Below, one piece after another: positions 24,439 to 33,200 of a stretch of DNA of 64,000 bases. The notes below the pieces were generated by a model that worked only from the letters and a program-made list of their open reading frames with translations, had not been told where the DNA came from and searched no databases. The translations under genes were made by a program, and so were the position numbers. Origin of the DNA: Methanococcoides sp. (lineage in GTDB: Archaea > Halobacteriota > Methanosarcinia > Methanosarcinales > Methanosarcinaceae); assembly GCA_021108275.1 (NCBI GenBank), contig JAIORD010000033.1, positions 62,001-126,000 of the forward strand, written 5' to 3'. Each line of letters begins with the position of its first letter. Position 1 is the stretch's first letter.

Positions 24439-24599
24439 TCATATCTTCCTGAATCGAGATCAAGGTCTTGAGCTACATAAGCGATCCTTTTTCTTGCATC
24501 CCATACAGTATTGGCATCAAGGAGCTTGTTATTAAAATAGAGACTACAACTTGTTTGGTGGGCAAAGCCCATTGGCATCTTCAAAAGTTCCGAATTCAT
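24432..24599 (-). pseudogene. fetA fragment with internal deletion
   Basis: The frame starts MNSELLK like fetA, then jumps straight to KMPMGFAHQTS, LLDANTVWDARKRIAY and stops at a TAG (24432-24434). Everything between residue 7 and the end of Walker A is missing, and the protein after the Q-loop is gone. The junction falls at a short shared ACTTTT-type sequence, as in microhomology deletion. It cannot bind ATP. It is a second, decayed copy of the queG-like/fetA junction seen at 23764. Confidence 0.85.
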
Positions 24600-25030
24600 G
24601 AGCTGTTAGATTCCTTCTGATGTGGAGATATGTTCTTATCCCCAGTTTTTCCATAAGGACAGACAAGGTTGCATATAGTACATGACATGAAACCACGATT
24701 GGAAATTCGCCGAATGTGTTTTTCCCATTTATCATCGAGATCTTTGTCAAATTTATGAGCCACAACACATTTGTCGTGGATAACCTTCTCCCCTGATGGC
24801 ACTCCTTGAGAAGGACCTGGAATTATAGCCTGATATGGACAGCTTTTGACACATAGGGACTTCTTTTGACACATAGGGACTTCTTTTGGCAGAGGGGCTG
24901 TTCTGCACAAAGATCACGTGTAAATGGTTCATCAGGCTTGATCTCTGCATCGGTCAGCACTGATATCCAGCGCACTCTTGGACCATATTCAGGAGTTATT
25001 ACTTGAGTATTGTGTCCGGTGAACTACCAC
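24596..25030 (-). pseudogene. C-terminal part of a queG-like 4Fe-4S protein
   Basis: The minus strand reads VITPEYGPRVRWISVLTDAE and FTRDLC, then, after a frame jump, SCPYQAIIPGPSQGV, HDKCVVAHKF, and SCTICNLVCPYGKTG. This is the ferredoxin-type end of an epoxyqueuosine-reductase-like protein. A 20-bp tandem duplication at 24844-24883 (TTTTGACACATAGGGACTTC twice) shifts the frame inside the cluster motif, and the N-terminal half is replaced by the tnpB element. Its stop overlaps the ATG of the fetA relic (24596-24599), preserving the ancestral coupling. Confidence 0.8.
24844..24883 (+). repeat. 20-bp tandem duplication
   Basis: TTTTGACACATAGGGACTTC is present twice in a row. Because 20 is not a multiple of three it breaks the frame of the queG-like relic within its Fe-S motif. 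Confidence 0.85.
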
Positions 25031-25033
25031 CCA

Positions 25034-26173
25034 TTAAAATGACTGGCTTCCTGCTTCATAGCCCAGACCAACGTCCGTGACTCCACAGGCCCTTCCCGTA
25101 GTCCCTACGGTGCATCGATTAAGAATATTGATTGCAGCATTAACATCTCTGTCAAGTTCAAGTCCACATTCAGGACATTTGTGAATCCTGACCGATAGAG
25201 CTTTCCTGACGATGTTTCCACAACTGCTGCATTCCTGTGATGTGTTGAATGGGTTAACCAATTCGACATACTTGCCAGCCTCTTCCGCTTTGCTTTTTGC
25301 CATCTGGATCAGTTGACCCCATGCAACATCATGTATTGATTTTGCGAGATGATGATCCTTAACCATGTCCTTGATATTCAAATCTTCGAACACTATTCTG
25401 TCAAACTTGTTGACAAGGACCCTGCTCAACTTATGGTTAAAATCAAGTCTCTGGTTACGTATCTTTCTGTGAACCTTAGCAACTTTGAGTTTTTGCTTAA
25501 GGCGGTTTGAGGATCTCATTTTCTTCTTGCTCAGTCTCTTTTGCTGGACTGCAAGGGATCTCTCCGACTTGCGGCAATATATAGGGGAATCGTACTGTTC
25601 CCCATTACTCAACGTGACACATGAGTTAAGCCCGACATCAATTCCTATGGATGTGGACGGTCTGATCTTTTCAGGACTTGCACCCATGTCAACAGAAAAA
25701 ACTGCATACCACTGATCCCCTTCACGTTTGATGGAACATGTTTTGAGCTTGCCTTCTATCTCTCGGTGCTGTTTTATCTTGATACTCCCTATCTTGGAAA
25801 GTTTCAGTTTAGTCCCTTCTATCCTGAAACCAGATTGAGGATATGTGAAACTGTTGTACCTGTCCTTTCCCTTGAACCTTGGATACCCTGGTGTTTCACC
25901 TGTTTTGCACCTTCTGAAAAAAGCATCAAATGATTTTCCAAGTCTTCGCAAAACATCCTGTTTGATCTGTGAGAATACTTCGGTATTGAACTCAATATAT
26001 TTGACCTGAGTAATCTGGTCAAATGTCGTTAATCCCTGGTTACATCGGTCATACGCATTCTTTCTGTCCGCAAGAAACTCGTTATAGATGTATCTGCATA
26101 CGTCCAGAGTTTTGACCAGAACAATCTCCTGTTCTTTGGCCGGGTACAGACGGAATTTGTAGGATTTCCGCAT
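25034..26173 (-). CDS. tnpB: TnpB (IS200/IS605-family RNA-guided nuclease)
   Basis: At 379 residues this is full length. The N-terminal helix-turn-helix/WED part begins MRKSYKFRLYP; the RuvC residues are D179 (GIDVGLNS), E263 (VFEDLNI) and D341/D343 (LDRDVNAAIN). The zinc finger is C315/C318 and C333/C336. TnpB is an omega-RNA-guided DNA nuclease that helps IS605-type elements persist. No tnpA is near, so this is an IS1341-style solo element. The omega RNA should overlap the 3' end and run to about 25020. A hairpin at 26245-26264 and CCACCCATT at 25026-25034 mark the likely ends. Confidence 0.93.
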   Translation of the reverse strand: MRKSYKFRLYPAKEQEIVLVKTLDVCRYIYNEFLADRKNAYDRCNQGLTTFDQITQVKYIEFNTEVFSQIKQDVLRRLGKSFDAFFRRCKTGETPGYPRFKGKDRYNSFTYPQSGFRIEGTKLKLSKIGSIKIKQHREIEGKLKTCSIKREGDQWYAVFSVDMGASPEKIRPSTSIGIDVGLNSCVTLSNGEQYDSPIYCRKSERSLAVQQKRLSKKKMRSSNRLKQKLKVAKVHRKIRNQRLDFNHKLSRVLVNKFDRIVFEDLNIKDMVKDHHLAKSIHDVAWGQLIQMAKSKAEEAGKYVELVNPFNTSQECSSCGNIVRKALSVRIHKCPECGLELDRDVNAAINILNRCTVGTTGRACGVTDVGLGYEAGSQSF

Positions 26174-26349: not shown

Positions 26350-26748
26350 ATGACAAAATGGAAAAAAGCTTCTGAAGAACTTGGGGAACTTGTCGGGGAA
26401 TATGTGGCCGAATACGATGCTGAGTTCAGGAAAATGTTCGGCAGTCCCGTTCATTTTGTGAAGGGGAACATGTTCGTAGGCGTTCATGGCGATGGCATAA
26501 TGCTACGCCTTAACGAAGATGACCAGCAAAAATTGTATGCTGAACACGATGAAGCAGCACCTTTTACACCAAATGGCAGGCGAATGAGAGAATATGCAAT
26601 GCTTCCGCCATCTGTGTACGATGATGAGATGGAGTTAAGGAAATGGCTGGATATATCCTATGCTTATGTGAGTTCCCTTCCAAAGAAGGAGAAAAAGGAG
26701 AAAAAGGAGAAAGTAGCTTCAAAGAAAACAAAAAAGGCAGAAGATTGA
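26350..26748 (+). CDS. TfoX N-terminal-domain-like protein
   Basis: The first 105 residues match the TfoX/Sxy N-terminal domain pattern: FRKMFGSPVHFVKGNMFVGVHGDGIMLRL, then PFTPNGRRMREYAMLPPSVYDDEMELRKWL. The last 25 residues are almost pure Lys/Glu/Ala (three KKEK units), probably a disordered nucleic-acid-binding or solubility tail. In bacteria TfoX regulates competence, but stand-alone N-terminal domains occur widely with unknown roles. The gene is monocistronic; its leader contains the 21-bp repeat. Confidence 0.8.
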   Translation: MTKWKKASEELGELVGEYVAEYDAEFRKMFGSPVHFVKGNMFVGVHGDGIMLRLNEDDQQKLYAEHDEAAPFTPNGRRMREYAMLPPSVYDDEMELRKWLDISYAYVSSLPKKEKKEKKEKVASKKTKKAED

Positions 26749-26759
26749 TGCGATCTGCA

Positions 26760-27872
26760 TCATCCCCATCCTTTTTTAATATCTTTTACAATAAGAGTTG
26801 CAAAATCTCTATTTTTTTCATCTAAGGTTATAGGATTGAATGATGAAGTATGCCTTTTTCGATAAAATCTCGGCATATCATCGATTTTGAAACGTATTGT
26901 TCCTTGAATCCACTTTTGTATCCTTGTGCCATTATCGTTTGGTTCAATTATTCCACACCCATAATGACCTCTTTTTATCCATTCAGCAAGTATTGTTACT
27001 TTTTGTTCATCATATTCTCTGAAAAATTGTTCATCAGGATTTCGATTAGATTCTCTTAATTGTACATCATTCCACAACTTCTTCATACTATGTGGTTTCG
27101 GAACACTTGATTTTGGATTTTCTTTTGTTTGGTTATTATTATGCACGTCTTTAATATGCTGCTCCAAACCATTTGCTGATTTGAACTTTTTATGACAATA
27201 TTTGCATATGAGATGGCCGTCTTTAATGTGCTTCTTCAAATTATTTATTGATTGGAACTCTTTCTCACAAAATTTGCATATGATGTGGGTATCTTTAATA
27301 TGTATATTCAAGAGAATTTCTGATTGGAAATATTCTCCACAGTATTTGCAGATGCTATGTTTGTCTTTAATGTGCTGCTTCAAAAGAATTTCTGACTGGA
27401 AATTCTTATCACAATATTTACAATTGTAATGCACATTTTTAAGATGCTGTTGCAAAATATCTTTTGATTGGAAGTATTCTCCACAGTATTTGCATGTGGC
27501 ATGCACGTCTTTAATATGCTGTTTCAAGAGAATTTTTGATTGGAAGTATTCATGACAATATTTGCATATGACATGGTCGTCTTCAATATGCCGTTGCAAA
27601 ATATCTTTTGATTGAAATTTTTCATCACAATATTTGCAAAAATAAGTATTCAGGATATTAGAAGAATATGCTAGGTGCTTCCCTTCATCCTCTACATGAA
27701 TTGTTGGTAGTGGAGGTTTCACAATTGATGATGATACTGTCTTTGCTAGACCAAGTTCATCTTCATCTTTTACGTTTTTAACGTTTGAATAGGTCATACA
27801 ATTGCTACAAAAACCATTTGATGCAACCTGCTGCCCACAACTTCTACACATTAACATATTATGACCTAGCAC
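26760..27872 (-). CDS. Seven-finger C2H2 zinc-finger protein
   Basis: After an N-terminal zinc ribbon (C9, C12, C22, C25) and an acidic linker, seven C2H2 fingers of the form C-x2-C-x12-H-x4-H begin at C79, C103, C127, C151, C175, C199 and C223, an exact 24-residue period. Linkers are only two residues, unlike the seven-residue TGEKP type. The C-terminal 120 residues (KKLWNDVQLRESNRNPDEQF... EWIKRGHYGCGIIEPND...) form an unrecognised domain that may be catalytic or binding. Tandem C2H2 arrays are rare in archaea. The gene lies next to a membrane Mrr nuclease and a DUF4393 gene, which suggests nucleic-acid recognition in a defence setting; that is inference. Confidence 0.85.
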   Translation of the reverse strand: MLGHNMLMCRSCGQQVASNGFCSNCMTYSNVKNVKDEDELGLAKTVSSSIVKPPLPTIHVEDEGKHLAYSSNILNTYFCKYCDEKFQSKDILQRHIEDDHVICKYCHEYFQSKILLKQHIKDVHATCKYCGEYFQSKDILQQHLKNVHYNCKYCDKNFQSEILLKQHIKDKHSICKYCGEYFQSEILLNIHIKDTHIICKFCEKEFQSINNLKKHIKDGHLICKYCHKKFKSANGLEQHIKDVHNNNQTKENPKSSVPKPHSMKKLWNDVQLRESNRNPDEQFFREYDEQKVTILAEWIKRGHYGCGIIEPNDNGTRIQKWIQGTIRFKIDDMPRFYRKRHTSSFNPITLDEKNRDFATLIVKDIKKGWG

Positions 27873-28247
27873 ATAAAATTATATAATGGTACCTAAAAAT
27901 TACCAATGTGTCATGATTGGATAAATATCTTTAAATTCGATTGTTGACCCTTTTTTTGTAGCAAAACCTTCATGGATCAAAATTGAATCCACATATGAAG
28001 CAAAGAGGAGTTTTCGGAATACTTTGTAATAGGATGTAGGATTATCATGCATTTAATAATGCATTCTCGAAATATATTTTGTATTAGTATTTGTAGATAA
28101 ACAACGTTTCTACATTTCTCTCAAATACCACATATTTAATTTTTAGGAAGGCTTAAATAAATAAAAGAAATAGATGCGGTCAATAACATAGGCGGTGATT
28201 TCAATTCCAGAAGATTTTTATTGTTGATTATTTGACGAGGTGTTAAA
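27873..28247. other. Intergenic region between divergent genes
   Basis: These 375 bp separate the leftward zinc-finger gene and the rightward Mrr-like gene. They are AT-rich and probably contain both promoters; I see no coding frame, tandem repeat or good hairpin. Confidence 0.3.
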
Positions 28248-29207
28248 GTGGAAATATCCGTATTATCCAAAAATGTATATGATTCATTCATTTATGCTAT
28301 TTTAAATAAAGGAAACAATATAAAAAAAGTGCCATTGCAAATATATACTATTTTTTGGACTATTTACTTGATTATATGTCTTGCAGCATGTACCGATTTA
28401 GCAATAGATGAAATAAATGAGATCGGTATTTTTGGAGGGTTATTTGTATCTTTAGTAGCATCTATTATTTGTGTTTCTATATTCGTTCTACCTCCCTATA
28501 CCCCAATTTATTATTTATGGTCTCGATACGTGAAAAATGATAATTTATCAGGTGAATCGAAGATTCAAGAACAAAATACAATCATGGCAGGCAGAAGCTC
28601 TCTATTTTATGCTTATGGAGCTATAATTATTTTGAGTTTGGCAGTAATTTTTATGATCTGGGTAACATCTATTTGGATAGGGATTGTTTTCTTATTTGGT
28701 GCATTGTTAATAATTAGTTCAGGACTATCCCCTACATTATACAATTATTTAGTCAATGTTGTCAAATACATTTCGAAATTGGATAAATATATATCGATCC
28801 TCTCTAAACATATATCGTCTTCTATTGATAAATTCTCAAAAACTAATGAAATTCATTCAACAATGCAAGAAATTGATATGATGAGTGGATATGATTTTGA
28901 AAACTATATGTATATGGTTTATAAGAATTTAGGATATTTAGTTGAACAAACGCCATTTTCTGGAGACCAAGGTGCAGACTTAATAATTCATACCGAAGAT
29001 GGAAAAGTTGCAATGCAGGTCAAGAGATATTCTAGAAACATAGGGAACAGAGCAATACAAGAAGTTGTAGCATCAAAGAATTATTATGGCTGTACTAAAT
29101 GTGCAGTTATCACGAACAGCTATTTCACTCAACATGCAATCGACCTTGCAAATTGCAATGGTGTAGCTCTTATAGATAGGGATGGACTAATGAAAATGGT
29201 TAGTTAA
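28248..29207 (+). CDS. Membrane-anchored Mrr-type restriction endonuclease
   Basis: A GTG start follows GAGGTG. Four membrane helices are visible in the first 165 residues (about 32-50, 62-82, 120-140, 143-162). Residues 205-319 are an Mrr/PD-(D/E)xK nuclease: MSGYDFENYMYMVYKNLGY, then D244 in DQGADLII and Q257-x-K259 in VAMQVKRY, with the family's AIQEVVASKNYYGCTKCAVITNS and a closing LIDRDGLMKM. All catalytic residues are present. Mrr-like nucleases cut foreign or modified DNA; tethering to the membrane suggests action on entering DNA. It sits between a zinc-finger gene and a DUF4393 gene. Confidence 0.88.
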   Translation: MEISVLSKNVYDSFIYAILNKGNNIKKVPLQIYTIFWTIYLIICLAACTDLAIDEINEIGIFGGLFVSLVASIICVSIFVLPPYTPIYYLWSRYVKNDNLSGESKIQEQNTIMAGRSSLFYAYGAIIILSLAVIFMIWVTSIWIGIVFLFGALLIISSGLSPTLYNYLVNVVKYISKLDKYISILSKHISSSIDKFSKTNEIHSTMQEIDMMSGYDFENYMYMVYKNLGYLVEQTPFSGDQGADLIIHTEDGKVAMQVKRYSRNIGNRAIQEVVASKNYYGCTKCAVITNSYFTQHAIDLANCNGVALIDRDGLMKMVS

Positions 29208-29343
29208 AACTATAGTTTACTTTAGATTCCAAAAGATTATATTATATTTCCTTACAAAGTGATACATCAGAAAATATCAAATGATTTGTTATTATGCATT
29301 AATAGAATAAAGGATATTATATTTCTTTTAAGGAGTGATACTT

Positions 29344-30069
29344 ATGGATGAATATATTAAGCCAATGATAGCAACTGGACTAAATTTATCAGAGATAGCG
29401 AAAGTTCCGTTCCACACCTTTGAACTACTAACCAATCCTGCTGCCGAAGAACTTGGATACTGGGCTCGAGATATTATTCATCACCGAAGGGAGAATTGTT
29501 CCAAAATTGCAACTGAAGCAATAACAATTCGAAAGTCGAATGGAAATATAGATGGGCTGTCAGCCCCACTACGTCTTGTATCTAAGATTATGGAAGAAGG
29601 TTCATTAATTGATGATAAGGACGTCCAAAAAATGTGGGCAGGTCTTCTAGCTTCAAGCTGCACACTGGATGGAAAGGATGAAAGCAATTTAGTATATATC
29701 GATTTATTATCGAAATTAACCTCTTCCGAAGTTGCCTTAGTTAATCATTTATGCAATCGCACAACGAAATCTGTAGAACTTTATTTTTTGATTACTGCAA
29801 GTTATCTTGACCTTGATATGAATATTTTACAAACTATTTTTGGGTTAAAAGATGTGCATATAATAGACCATACAATAAAACATTTGGAATCGCTTGGGTT
29901 GGTGGAATTTATTGGCATAAATGATACTTCTATAGCTGCTATTAGTAATAATGATTCTTTTTCTGTTACGTTGAAACCTACTACGTTATGTTTGAACATG
30001 TATGTAAAATGCCAAGGCTCATCAGATTCTCCAGCTAAATATTGGTCTGAATGTTTACATGAGCAATAA
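29344..30069 (+). CDS. DUF4393 (Abi-alpha-like) protein
   Basis: I start at the ATG 29344, nine bases after GGAG. The protein (241 residues) has the DUF4393/Abi-alpha layout: ELLTNPAAEELGYWARDIIHHRRENC, a central PLRLVSKIMEEGSLIDDKDVQKMWAGLLASS, and EVALVNHLC with a later winged-helix-like LQTIFGLKDVHIIDHTIKHLESLGLVEF. The family is linked to abortive infection but its mechanism is unknown. It lies 136 bp after the Mrr-like nuclease on the same strand. The family call is fairly good; defence function is from association. Confidence 0.78.
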   Translation: MDEYIKPMIATGLNLSEIAKVPFHTFELLTNPAAEELGYWARDIIHHRRENCSKIATEAITIRKSNGNIDGLSAPLRLVSKIMEEGSLIDDKDVQKMWAGLLASSCTLDGKDESNLVYIDLLSKLTSSEVALVNHLCNRTTKSVELYFLITASYLDLDMNILQTIFGLKDVHIIDHTIKHLESLGLVEFIGINDTSIAAISNNDSFSVTLKPTTLCLNMYVKCQGSSDSPAKYWSECLHEQ

Positions 30070-30250
30070 GTTGTTATTTTTTGTGAGTTCGGGATGTGTG
30101 ACTACAAAAAAACAAATTATTAAATGAATAATGGACTGAATCAGTCGATTCATGTTACTAATTTTTACTTTTATGATACGATTCAAAGGATAAAAAGAAA
30201 AGTTTATGACATGATAAACATGCCATAAATAAGTAAAATGCCTAAAAATA

Positions 30251-33200
30251 TCAATATTCCTCTTTAATATACTTGATCATCTTAGGCGTCAGCAGTGGAA
30301 CGATCTGTGGAAGCATGTTAGGCATAAGGTTCCCCATAGCCTCTGGCATAAGATCAGGCATCTGTTCTCTCAGATCATCGGACATCTGAACACGCCTTCC
30401 CACAGCTTCGAGCATTTCCGGCATGACCTTTGGCATTATGCCTGGCAGAAGCATTGGCATCATGATAGGCATCATTGGCTTCATCATGAGGTCCATGCCT
30501 GGTACATACTTTACCATCTTCATCATACCACGCAGCGGAGCAGGCATTGCAGCCATCATTTCTGGAAGCAGCTCTACCATAAGATCGGTCATGTTCTCAG
30601 GTCTTAGCAGATGGATCATCTGGTCGAAAGTTACCCAGGCTGTGAGTGCAGCATTTGTGGTGTCAGGTATATCATACCCAAGACTGCGGGCAACCGTTGC
30701 CGAAAGGTCCTGAACGTTCACAGAACTGCCACTGTTCTTGGCAGCTATCCTCAACTGTACCTGACAGCACGGACAGGCTGCGACCATGATCTCGGCACCG
30801 ATATCCTCGGCTTCCTTCAGTCTCATGTTACCAATAACATTCGCAACTTCCGGATCAGCGACCAGTGTGAGTACTGAGCCACAGCAATGACCGTTCGCCC
30901 TGTTATGTTCCATTTCACGGAAATCAACGCCAGGCACTGACTTGATAAGGTTCCTTGGTGGCTCGTATATGCCGCCTGCACGACCCATGTGGCAAGCGTC
31001 GTGTATGGTTACTACCTTGTCGAGCGGCTTGACGAATTTCTCAGAAAGCACATCGAGCTTGTCCTCCAGCACCTGTGAATAGTGTTTGGCCTCGAAATCG
31101 TATTCGATACCGAGCTTCTCCGCCCACTGGCGATAGAAAGTATCCCACACCAACCAGCATGCCGGACAGGAGGTGATAACGGTCTTAACACCCTTCTTCT
31201 TCATGTTCTCGATGTTCATCCTCATGATCTTCTCGAAAACATCCCACTTTCCGGCTGCAAGCATCGGGATACCACAACAGGACTCTTCCTTTCCGAGATA
31301 TGTTATCTCCAGACCTGCATCTGTGAGTAGACGGACTGAAGCCTCAGCAATGTCCTTCTCGACAAAGGATGCAGTACATCCTGCGAAGTAAGCGTATTCG
31401 GCCTTGTCCTTGATCTTTGGCTTAAGGTCCTCAGGGATCCATTCTTCCCTGTTCTTGAGATATTCTCCCCAGATGTTACGCTCTTTGAGCAGGCTGGAAG
31501 CCATTATCTCGAACGGTGGGATGGTCATCATGCCACGGTTCACCACAAGTTCGTTCCTCAATGTCATCCAGGAATCATTTATTGGAAGATCGAGCTGGCA
31601 TCTGTGGTCACAAAGCTCACAGGTAGTACAAGCAAGGAACGTGTCCACCTGTTCCTGTGTCATCTTGTCCCTGCCGGCAATATATTCCTTGATGAAGAAC
31701 CACTTGCCTCTTGGGGACTGGGATTCCCAGCCACGACCGTAGTACTGGTCACATTCCTCGACACAGTAACCACATTGAGCACAGGTGTATGCGTGAGATA
31801 CAACGTCTGCCTCAATATCCTTCTGTTTAGTGAATTTCTCGACCTCGATGCCGCTGCGATTACCTACGAACCTCATCATTGGCTCGAATGCTTTTGAAAG
31901 TGAAATTCCGGTCTTGAGAATACCTTTACCTGAAATCGTCTCAGGGTTCATTATGTCTTCAGGATCGACCTGTTGCTTAAGGTCAAGCATCTTCTCAAGA
32001 CGGCTACCATAGACCTTCTCTGCCTCTTTTGCAAAATAAAGACCTGAAGCATATATCCTTCCGCCGTTCTCTTCAGCGATCTTGACGATGCTGATACCCA
32101 ATGTGAAGGCGAGGTTGAACTTGAACGACCTTTCGGAGTGAGGTATGAAACAGAGCAGTATGGCATTGCCATCCTTTGCAACCATACCTTCCATGAGCAC
32201 AGGAAGAGAGATCTTCTGCTTGATCTCGCTGACAACTTTGTCCACCTTGTCCAGAGGTACGATTATCTCTGCAGGAATGAAGGAAGGACCAAGCCTTTTC
32301 ACCTTCATGGAGCGGAACCATTCTCCAGCTTCGTGTTTGGAGATCTCTTCAGAAAGGACTTTGCCACCACTGCTGGTAATAATATTTTCAAGGGCACTAA
32401 CATCCCTTGACTCAGGATAAATGAAGTTACAAATATATGACTTCGGCAATTCCGGTCTGTCCTCGACAACCGGTTCGCCATGATGGGTAGAGAATGGCAT
32501 TTCATTCTTCATGCCTGCCCAATCGGGATTTATAAATGAGATAGACCACAGTGGCACTTTTGCTTCTTTTACCGCCTGGAGAGCTTTCTGCATGGAGGCC
32601 GGGTCTGCAAATTCCGCAGAGATTATAGCGGTGTCTTCTTTGTTTCTTATATTAAGGGTGATCTGTGTGATGGTGCCTATAGTACCCATACTTCCGATGA
32701 GGGCGTCCATTTCATCGCCTGAGAAATCCCTGATCTCGCCGTTTGGCAATACTGCCCTTGCGGAGACCATTGTGTCCTGGGACCAGCCATATTCATAGCT
32801 GCCATAACCGATACCGTTCTGAGCAAGCCAGCCACCGACAGTTGCTGCCGGAGCACTTGAAGGCATGGCACATACAGAGAGATCCTCTTTGTTGAGCTTT
32901 CTTTCAAGGCGTTCCCAAACGATGCCTGCTCCAACGGTCACTGTCATGTTCTCAGTATCGATGGATATGATCTTGTTCAGCAGATTGACGTCTGCAACGA
33001 TACCGCCTTTTGTAGGAATGACACCACCATAACCGGATGATGCACCTGCACGGGGGACAATAGGAATAGAATATTTTCGTGCGAACTCCATCAGTTTGAC
33101 AATATCATCCTCGGTACGCAATTTTACAATCGCGGCAGGATCGGTATTGCCCAACATCATCTTTGCCATTGAAGGAAGTGCTCCGACATCATGACAATAG

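Follow-up and report, generated by a model that had tools for sequence, protein, structure and literature searches.

Three defence-type genes at an insertion hotspot of Methanococcoides: probably a patchwork of independently mobile genes rather than a three-gene system

We analyzed a 64,000-nucleotide stretch of the archaeon Methanococcoides sp. (GCA_021108275.1, contig JAIORD010000033.1, positions 62,001 to 126,000 of the forward strand; hereafter "the window"), which belongs to an assembly of 2.67 Mb in 60 contigs (genome G000). A previous interpretation of this DNA, made without database searches (the sequence-only reading), had proposed that three neighboring genes form a defence module. 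All three open reading frames (ORFs) are present where that reading placed them, i.e., a gene for a C2H2 zinc-finger (ZF) array protein (26760-27872, minus strand; 26760-27857 if counted from the ATG at 27857, where homologues start), a gene for a membrane-anchored Mrr-type PD-(D/E)xK nuclease (28248-29207, plus strand; assigned by Pfam, PADLOC and sequence) and a gene for an Abi_alpha protein (PF14337/DUF4393; listed ORF 29335-30069, plus strand), which probably begins at the ATG at 29344, preceded by AAGGAG. The ZF gene runs in the opposite direction, so the three genes do not make up a single operon; the Mrr and Abi-alpha genes share a strand and a similar GC content and lie approx. 130 bp apart. 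The proposed AT-richness of the insert was also confirmed, with a GC content of 28-36% over most of its length as compared to 46-51% in the oxidoreductase gene on the right and approx. 39-46% across the TnpB and TfoX-like genes on the left. While the three protein identities were thus named correctly, the "tnpB scar" described on the left is no remnant: the TnpB ORF (25034-26173) has its full length of 379 aa and contains HTH, OrfB and TNB domains, and a TfoX-like gene (26350-26748) separates it from the ZF gene. No matches were obtained when the window was scanned for Rfam families and tRNAs.

The Mrr protein matched Mrr_cat well above the Pfam cut-off (E = 8.4e-26; 90.8 bits, cut-off 21) and carries, in addition to this profile, the D...(E/Q)xK motif, in which D244 and K259, the two residues singled out before, stand as D244 ... 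Q257-V-K259. Four membrane helices had been proposed; we found three to four hydrophobic segments at approx. residues 35-165. The protein shares Mrr_cat with D...QxK with Mrr-type restriction endonucleases, and PADLOC assigns this domain to its models PDC-S02 and ZorD1 (the latter for the nuclease domain); it differs from these in its N-terminal hydrophobic segments and in that no Zorya operon lies alongside. We propose that it may act as a membrane-tethered solo restriction-type nuclease. The Abi-alpha ORF matched Abi_alpha with E = 7.1e-17 (62.5 bits, cut-off 29). Like the Abi-alpha protein of Enterococcus faecalis prophage 6 (ef2833), which causes abortive infection in Enterococcus according to PMC6356687, it is encoded by a single accessory gene and lies above the family cut-off; unlike it, the window copy is archaeal, has 244 aa that cover profile positions 22-147 of 196, and has no bacterial host or phage-lysis context. 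By analogy with its Enterococcus relative it might serve as a single-gene abortive-infection factor. Sequence searches found no solved relatives of the Mrr and Abi-alpha proteins. The Mrr domain alone had matches in 225 plasmid records, and Abi-alpha had none in plasmid records. A viral origin was also considered for ZF, Mrr and Abi-alpha and rejected, as no relatives were found in the viral contigs searched.

The three genes lie between the TfoX-like gene and an FAD/Fe-S oxidoreductase gene, both of which are conserved in all 11 genomes of the genus analyzed. The gap between these two genes measures approx. 3.5 kb in the window genome, where blastn homology to congener G091 (L068) stops at 26778 and resumes at 30254 (inserted DNA, 26778-30253). 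It is empty (42-64 bp) in 3 of the 10 congeners (G091, with approx. 64 bp, G098 and G099), and six others carry shorter inserts (approx. 770 bp in G092, G093 and G095, 1.6 kb in G094, 1.8 kb in G090 and 2.0 kb in G097); in G096 the gap was not measurable, with the two flanking genes on separate contigs. Inspection of ORF listings by eye did not reveal any of the trio genes in the inserts of four occupied relatives (G097, G090, G094 and G092), which carry other cargo, i.e., a 418-aa ORF in G097, a membrane-protein-like ORF in G090 and a common 234-aa ORF in G094 and G092. The site is therefore an insertion hotspot whose cargo is exchangeable. At the left junction, the 3' end of the ZF gene (AAAAAAGGATGGG; 26760-26778, minus strand) has the same sequence as the flank in the ZF-less relatives G091 and G097, and likely represents a microhomology junction; DNA homology between the window ZF gene and that of G090 ends approx. 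28-43 bp upstream of the start codon.

Co-occurrence of the trio was assessed by protein searches in 185 genomes of the order, the window's own genome included, and by tblastn comparisons between loci. Matches were found in 79 genomes for Mrr (Mrr domain), in 6 for Abi-alpha and in 9 for ZF, and all three genes occurred together in one genome only, i.e., that of the window. The best foreign Mrr matches span only residues from approx. 106 onward, and a Pfam search for Abi_alpha hit 6 of 392 genomes of the phylum, 5 of them above the cut-off. By tblastn, no Mrr or ZF gene was found in 8 other Abi-alpha loci (two of which rest on weak matches), no Abi-alpha or ZF gene in 18 Mrr loci (14 distinct places, 10 of them viewed with flanks of ±1.5 kb only) and no Mrr or Abi-alpha gene in 12 other ZF loci, so that no two trio genes were adjacent in any of the 34 other places compared. 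The sequence-only reading had made recurrence in other genomes its own test, and on that test it fails as regards a single system, although the defence-type character of the genes stands, given the abortive-infection relative in Enterococcus (PMC6356687), the PADLOC matches of Mrr and the defence genes around ZF relatives. The role that it suggested for the set, recognition of incoming DNA at the membrane, is conjectural. Physical proximity and defence-type content are what speak for a true new defence module of three genes; with no recurrence in 184 other genomes of the order or in the compared loci, we rejected the trio as a conserved module, and we regard this proposal as very improbable and, since co-occurrence is absent, already largely refuted.

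Overall, we consider it probable that defence-type genes which move independently of one another have gathered at this hotspot as a patchwork and do not form a three-gene system, with each gene acting separately or with partners elsewhere. Several points weigh against this interpretation. The flanks viewed around 10 of the 14 Mrr places were narrow, the presence of three defence-type genes together could reflect selection for joint action, and the co-directional Mrr and Abi-alpha genes, approx. 130 bp apart and alike in GC content, could possibly be a two-gene unit. Such a two-gene operon appears improbable, though, in view of the absence of Mrr from the 8 other Abi-alpha loci and of Abi-alpha from the 18 Mrr loci, and of the fact that Abi-alpha suffices as an abortive-infection factor in Enterococcus (PMC6356687). 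The negative result for the trio spares the pursuit of a false three-gene system.

The ZF protein consists of an N-terminal CxxC...CxxC ribbon (first 66 aa; 27660-27857, minus strand), conserved in five copies from the genus, a C2H2 array (27141-27638, minus strand) and a family-conserved C-terminal region of unknown fold (26763-27140, minus strand). Pfam recovered seven C2H2 stretches; the fingers have 22 residues each with 2-residue spacing, i.e., a 24-aa unit with C-x2-C-x12-H-x4-H repeats, which at the DNA level appears as a 72-bp tandem repeat (6.9 copies, 72% match). The predicted model has a pLDDT of 73-86 over most of the array and <50 over the C-terminal region. A TATA-like element (TTATATAATT; 27877-27886, minus strand) 19 bp before the start codon is a putative promoter, and a similar element is found in loci L072 and L074. 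The family is patchy in Methanosarcinaceae, with linkers mostly of 1-4 residues rather than of the eukaryotic TGEKP type. Arrays of a second type, whose linkers are comparably short, were found in Methanolobus bombayensis (three loci with four genes in all), in a Methanosarcinaceae metagenome-assembled genome and in an uncultured archaeon; outside the order, samples of 392 genomes of the phylum gave only short matches of one or a few fingers to short-linker arrays. Eukaryote-like C2H2 arrays of a separate kind, with the 7-residue TGEKP-type linkers that are absent from the window array, were encountered at L173:5992-6774 and L172:5700-6390 (Salmonella enterica plasmid, Babeliales contig).

Array length differs among ZF relatives, as the five genus copies (from 4 genomes) have 7, 7, 11, 3 and 12 canonical fingers, and some internal fingers are nearly identical in DNA (L075, fingers 5/8 100% and 6/9 95%; L073, fingers 2/5 and 7/9 97%). 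The window protein shares 82-85% identity with the G090 copy, and dS between the two genes is 0.038 in the array as compared to 0.166 and 0.262 in the regions flanking it; with dS in the array below that of both sides, the parts of the ZF gene have different histories, i.e., the gene is a mosaic. The genus arrays thus show, at the sequence level, signs of internal duplication and recombination, and array length may change through recombination between the 72-bp repeats. In PRDM9 and KRAB proteins, arrays likewise change by repeat recombination. Eukaryotic poly-C2H2 proteins (TFIIIA, CTCF, ZFP568 and PRDM9 among the Foldseek matches listed, with query TM-scores of at most 0.17) also have tandem C2H2 fingers, and differ in their 28-aa unit and 7-residue linker and in that the contact residues of the ZF arrays are atypical. 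Ser occupies position -1 in 29 of 33 fingers, and Leu or Ile stands at position 3 in 18 of 33, with variation at positions 1, 2, 3, 5 and 6. The short linkers, the near-invariant Ser at -1 and the hydrophobic residue at position 3 weigh against classical major-groove reading, and the fingers may instead bind protein or RNA. A survey quoted in PMC3541406 gives approx. 74% of archaeal C2H2 proteins one finger and approx. 20% two, so that methanogen arrays of 7-12 fingers are unusual; the C2H2 set in PMC6344855 is drawn from the human genome. No report of these arrays, or of the nuclease pairing described below, was found among the papers listed by searches of an open-access library, subscription papers being mostly outside this search.

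Homologues of the ZF gene frequently reside among defence genes. In L077, two ZF genes start 30 nt downstream of a DUF1156 methyltransferase (1.8e-288) and PLD-helicase (4.8e-235) operon and are followed by an MkoA-like helicase and an McrBC component. L076 carries BREX genes, i.e., BrxA (3.3e-107) and, slightly outside the 5-kb counting limit, PglZ (4.3e-138), and L078 carries ShosA (2e-82) with ShosT (2.8e-17) and a NERD-UvrD helicase (2.2e-84). A BglII-like nuclease is found in L072 with a PifA/KAP ATPase (9.7e-85), in L073 with a Lamassu-like LmuB-type ATPase (5.5e-111) and in L074 with PDC-S11 (5.5e-110); L075 has a PDDEXK_4 nuclease (8.9e-9; PDC-S26, 1.7e-12), and in L080 and L081 only toxin-antitoxin-like ORFs were seen close by, by eye. 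We compared, using PADLOC, the 72 neighbor ORFs of nine ZF loci to 79 ORFs of nine control regions (L175-L183; L184-L186 lay outside the scan), which were placed arbitrarily in some of the same genomes, with G067 and G076 unrepresented. Among the best 25 families of each tally, 9 distinct proteins of the 72 ZF neighbors, in 6 of the 9 loci, had matches with E ≤ 1e-40, as compared to 4-6 of the 79 control proteins, i.e., a type I methyltransferase, bSEFIR, HerA and one to three mad2 (the HsdM-like match lies in L183; the tally does not give the regions of the others). If only specific systems are counted, 6 of 9 ZF loci and 1 of 9 control regions are positive (P = 0.025; one-sided Fisher's exact test, calculated by hand). 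A further point to be set against our interpretation is that the difference is weak when every match is counted, and clear only if HerA, mad2 and bSEFIR are housekeeping look-alikes. The enrichment of defence neighbors around ZF relatives is modest. As an observation apart, two further small proteins with a ribbon and C2H2 fingers directly adjoin an HsdR-like ORF (by eye) at L072:13777-14847, and a 35-residue ZF remnant in the window genome (C4) lies just upstream of a type I restriction-modification operon, also identified by eye.

In such surroundings the ZF protein might function as an adaptor for nucleic-acid or protein recognition. It is also possible, if on the doubtful side, that it regulates, or is an antidote to, mobile elements or neighboring toxic genes, and is found in islands because it travels with them. 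A primase-like ORF in L075, a wHTH-like ORF that recurs in several ZF loci, a Doc-like ORF adjoining L080 and an MNT/HEPN-like pair adjoining L081 (all by eye) are in line with this explanation, as are the archaeal C2H2 protein AFV1p06, viral and DNA-binding according to PMC3541406, and one plasmid-borne homologue. This homologue, from a Methanohalobium evestigatum plasmid, has ribbon and fingers and is one of two records inspected among four plasmid records with ZF matches, all below 60% identity; the other, from Salmonella, has eukaryote-like linkers. A plain regulator would, however, not be expected to vary from 3 to 12 fingers within a genus, the two ZF genes of L077 follow a methyltransferase-helicase operon at 30 nt, and ZF had no match in 50,697 phage records or in viral contigs.

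The BglII-like gene is present in 3 of the 11 genus genomes (L072, L073 and L074), all of them ZF-positive and with the two genes linked; the chance that three such genomes all fall within the four ZF genomes is 4/165 = 0.024 (calculated by hand). It lies upstream of ZF on the same strand, at 82 bp in two loci (to the common ZF start) or approx. 1.5 kb. The copies are 93-96% identical (omega 0.03-0.05), while in the same loci the N- and C-terminal parts of ZF have omega values of 0.14-0.45 and the arrays have 7, 11 and 3 fingers. The 167-aa protein matched PF09195, the family of BglII and BstYI (36 bits, cut-off 26), and a marginal alignment with BstYI (203 aa; E = 0.039) places a D-x8-E-x-Q motif, which we take to be catalytic, in register; no solved chain was matched at E ≤ 0.01 by a profile built from the three copies. 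Compared to BstYI, the congener nuclease is approx. 36 aa shorter, and has a ZF or cas1-like gene rather than a methyltransferase alongside: no ORF of at least 150 aa with a [DNS]PP[YFW] methyltransferase motif was found in the three loci, in a search not directed specifically at C5-methyltransferases.

These observations raise the question of a natural zinc-finger nuclease in two parts, with ZF arrays as the exchangeable specificity part and a BglII/BstYI-type nuclease as the constant part, in which the window copy would have lost its nuclease and might use Mrr instead. Exclusive linkage to ZF within the genus, the constancy of the nuclease next to a more variable ZF protein, the BstYI-like motif in a protein of reduced size and the lack of the methyltransferase ORFs sought would all fit. 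HsdS, the specificity subunit of type I restriction-modification systems, provides an analogy, in that a variable protein does the recognizing alongside an almost invariant enzyme; the two are unrelated in sequence, and recognition by ZF is putative. On the other hand, a fourth BglII-like gene (G137; 1 of 49 genomes), without ZF, lies 18 bp behind a Cas1-like ORF (L194:5448-7166; by eye), so that 3 of the 4 genes found are linked to ZF. With a separate TATA-like box in front of the ZF gene, the pair is not strictly an operon; moreover, the linked copies may stem from one transfer, as L072 and L074 share 1.4 kb of DNA at this locus, the residues at finger positions -1 and 3 are unlike usual base contacts, and no BglII-like gene was found in the window genome, where ZF thus stands unlinked. 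We therefore view a two-part nuclease as unlikely. The broader proposal is slightly less likely again, i.e., that Methanosarcinaceae carry a split zinc-finger nuclease in which a near-invariant BglII/BstYI-type enzyme is recruited by a hypervariable short-linker array, that other islands pair arrays with other defence enzymes and that the window copy now sits beside a membrane Mrr protein. If it were true, gain, loss and exchange of fingers by recombination would be the equivalent, coded in protein, of variation in HsdS or in spacers.

The methanogen arrays have their own linker rule and rapid turnover. Should they serve as recognition parts in defence, archaea would possess a variable recognizer made of protein, and the arrays would be a source of compact zinc-finger scaffolds with short linkers. 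The ZF homologues of L073 (6032-6110) and L074 (5955-6024) share the position of an in-frame TAG codon, beyond which a conserved tail extends to GWV-stop; in Methanosarcinaceae this might reflect pyrrolysine read-through. Two islands, at L075:5190-7282 and L082:8332-9950, have in common a CxxC/C2H2 protein and a 140-aa ORF without an assigned family; one of them carries a ZF paralogue and the other an interrupted Abi-alpha gene. On the left side of the hotspot, TnpB lies within DNA that is missing from congener G091 (homology breaks at approx. 24452 and 26289), and broken ferredoxin/Fe-S-like ORF fragments (24544-24950) adjoin this TnpB insert.

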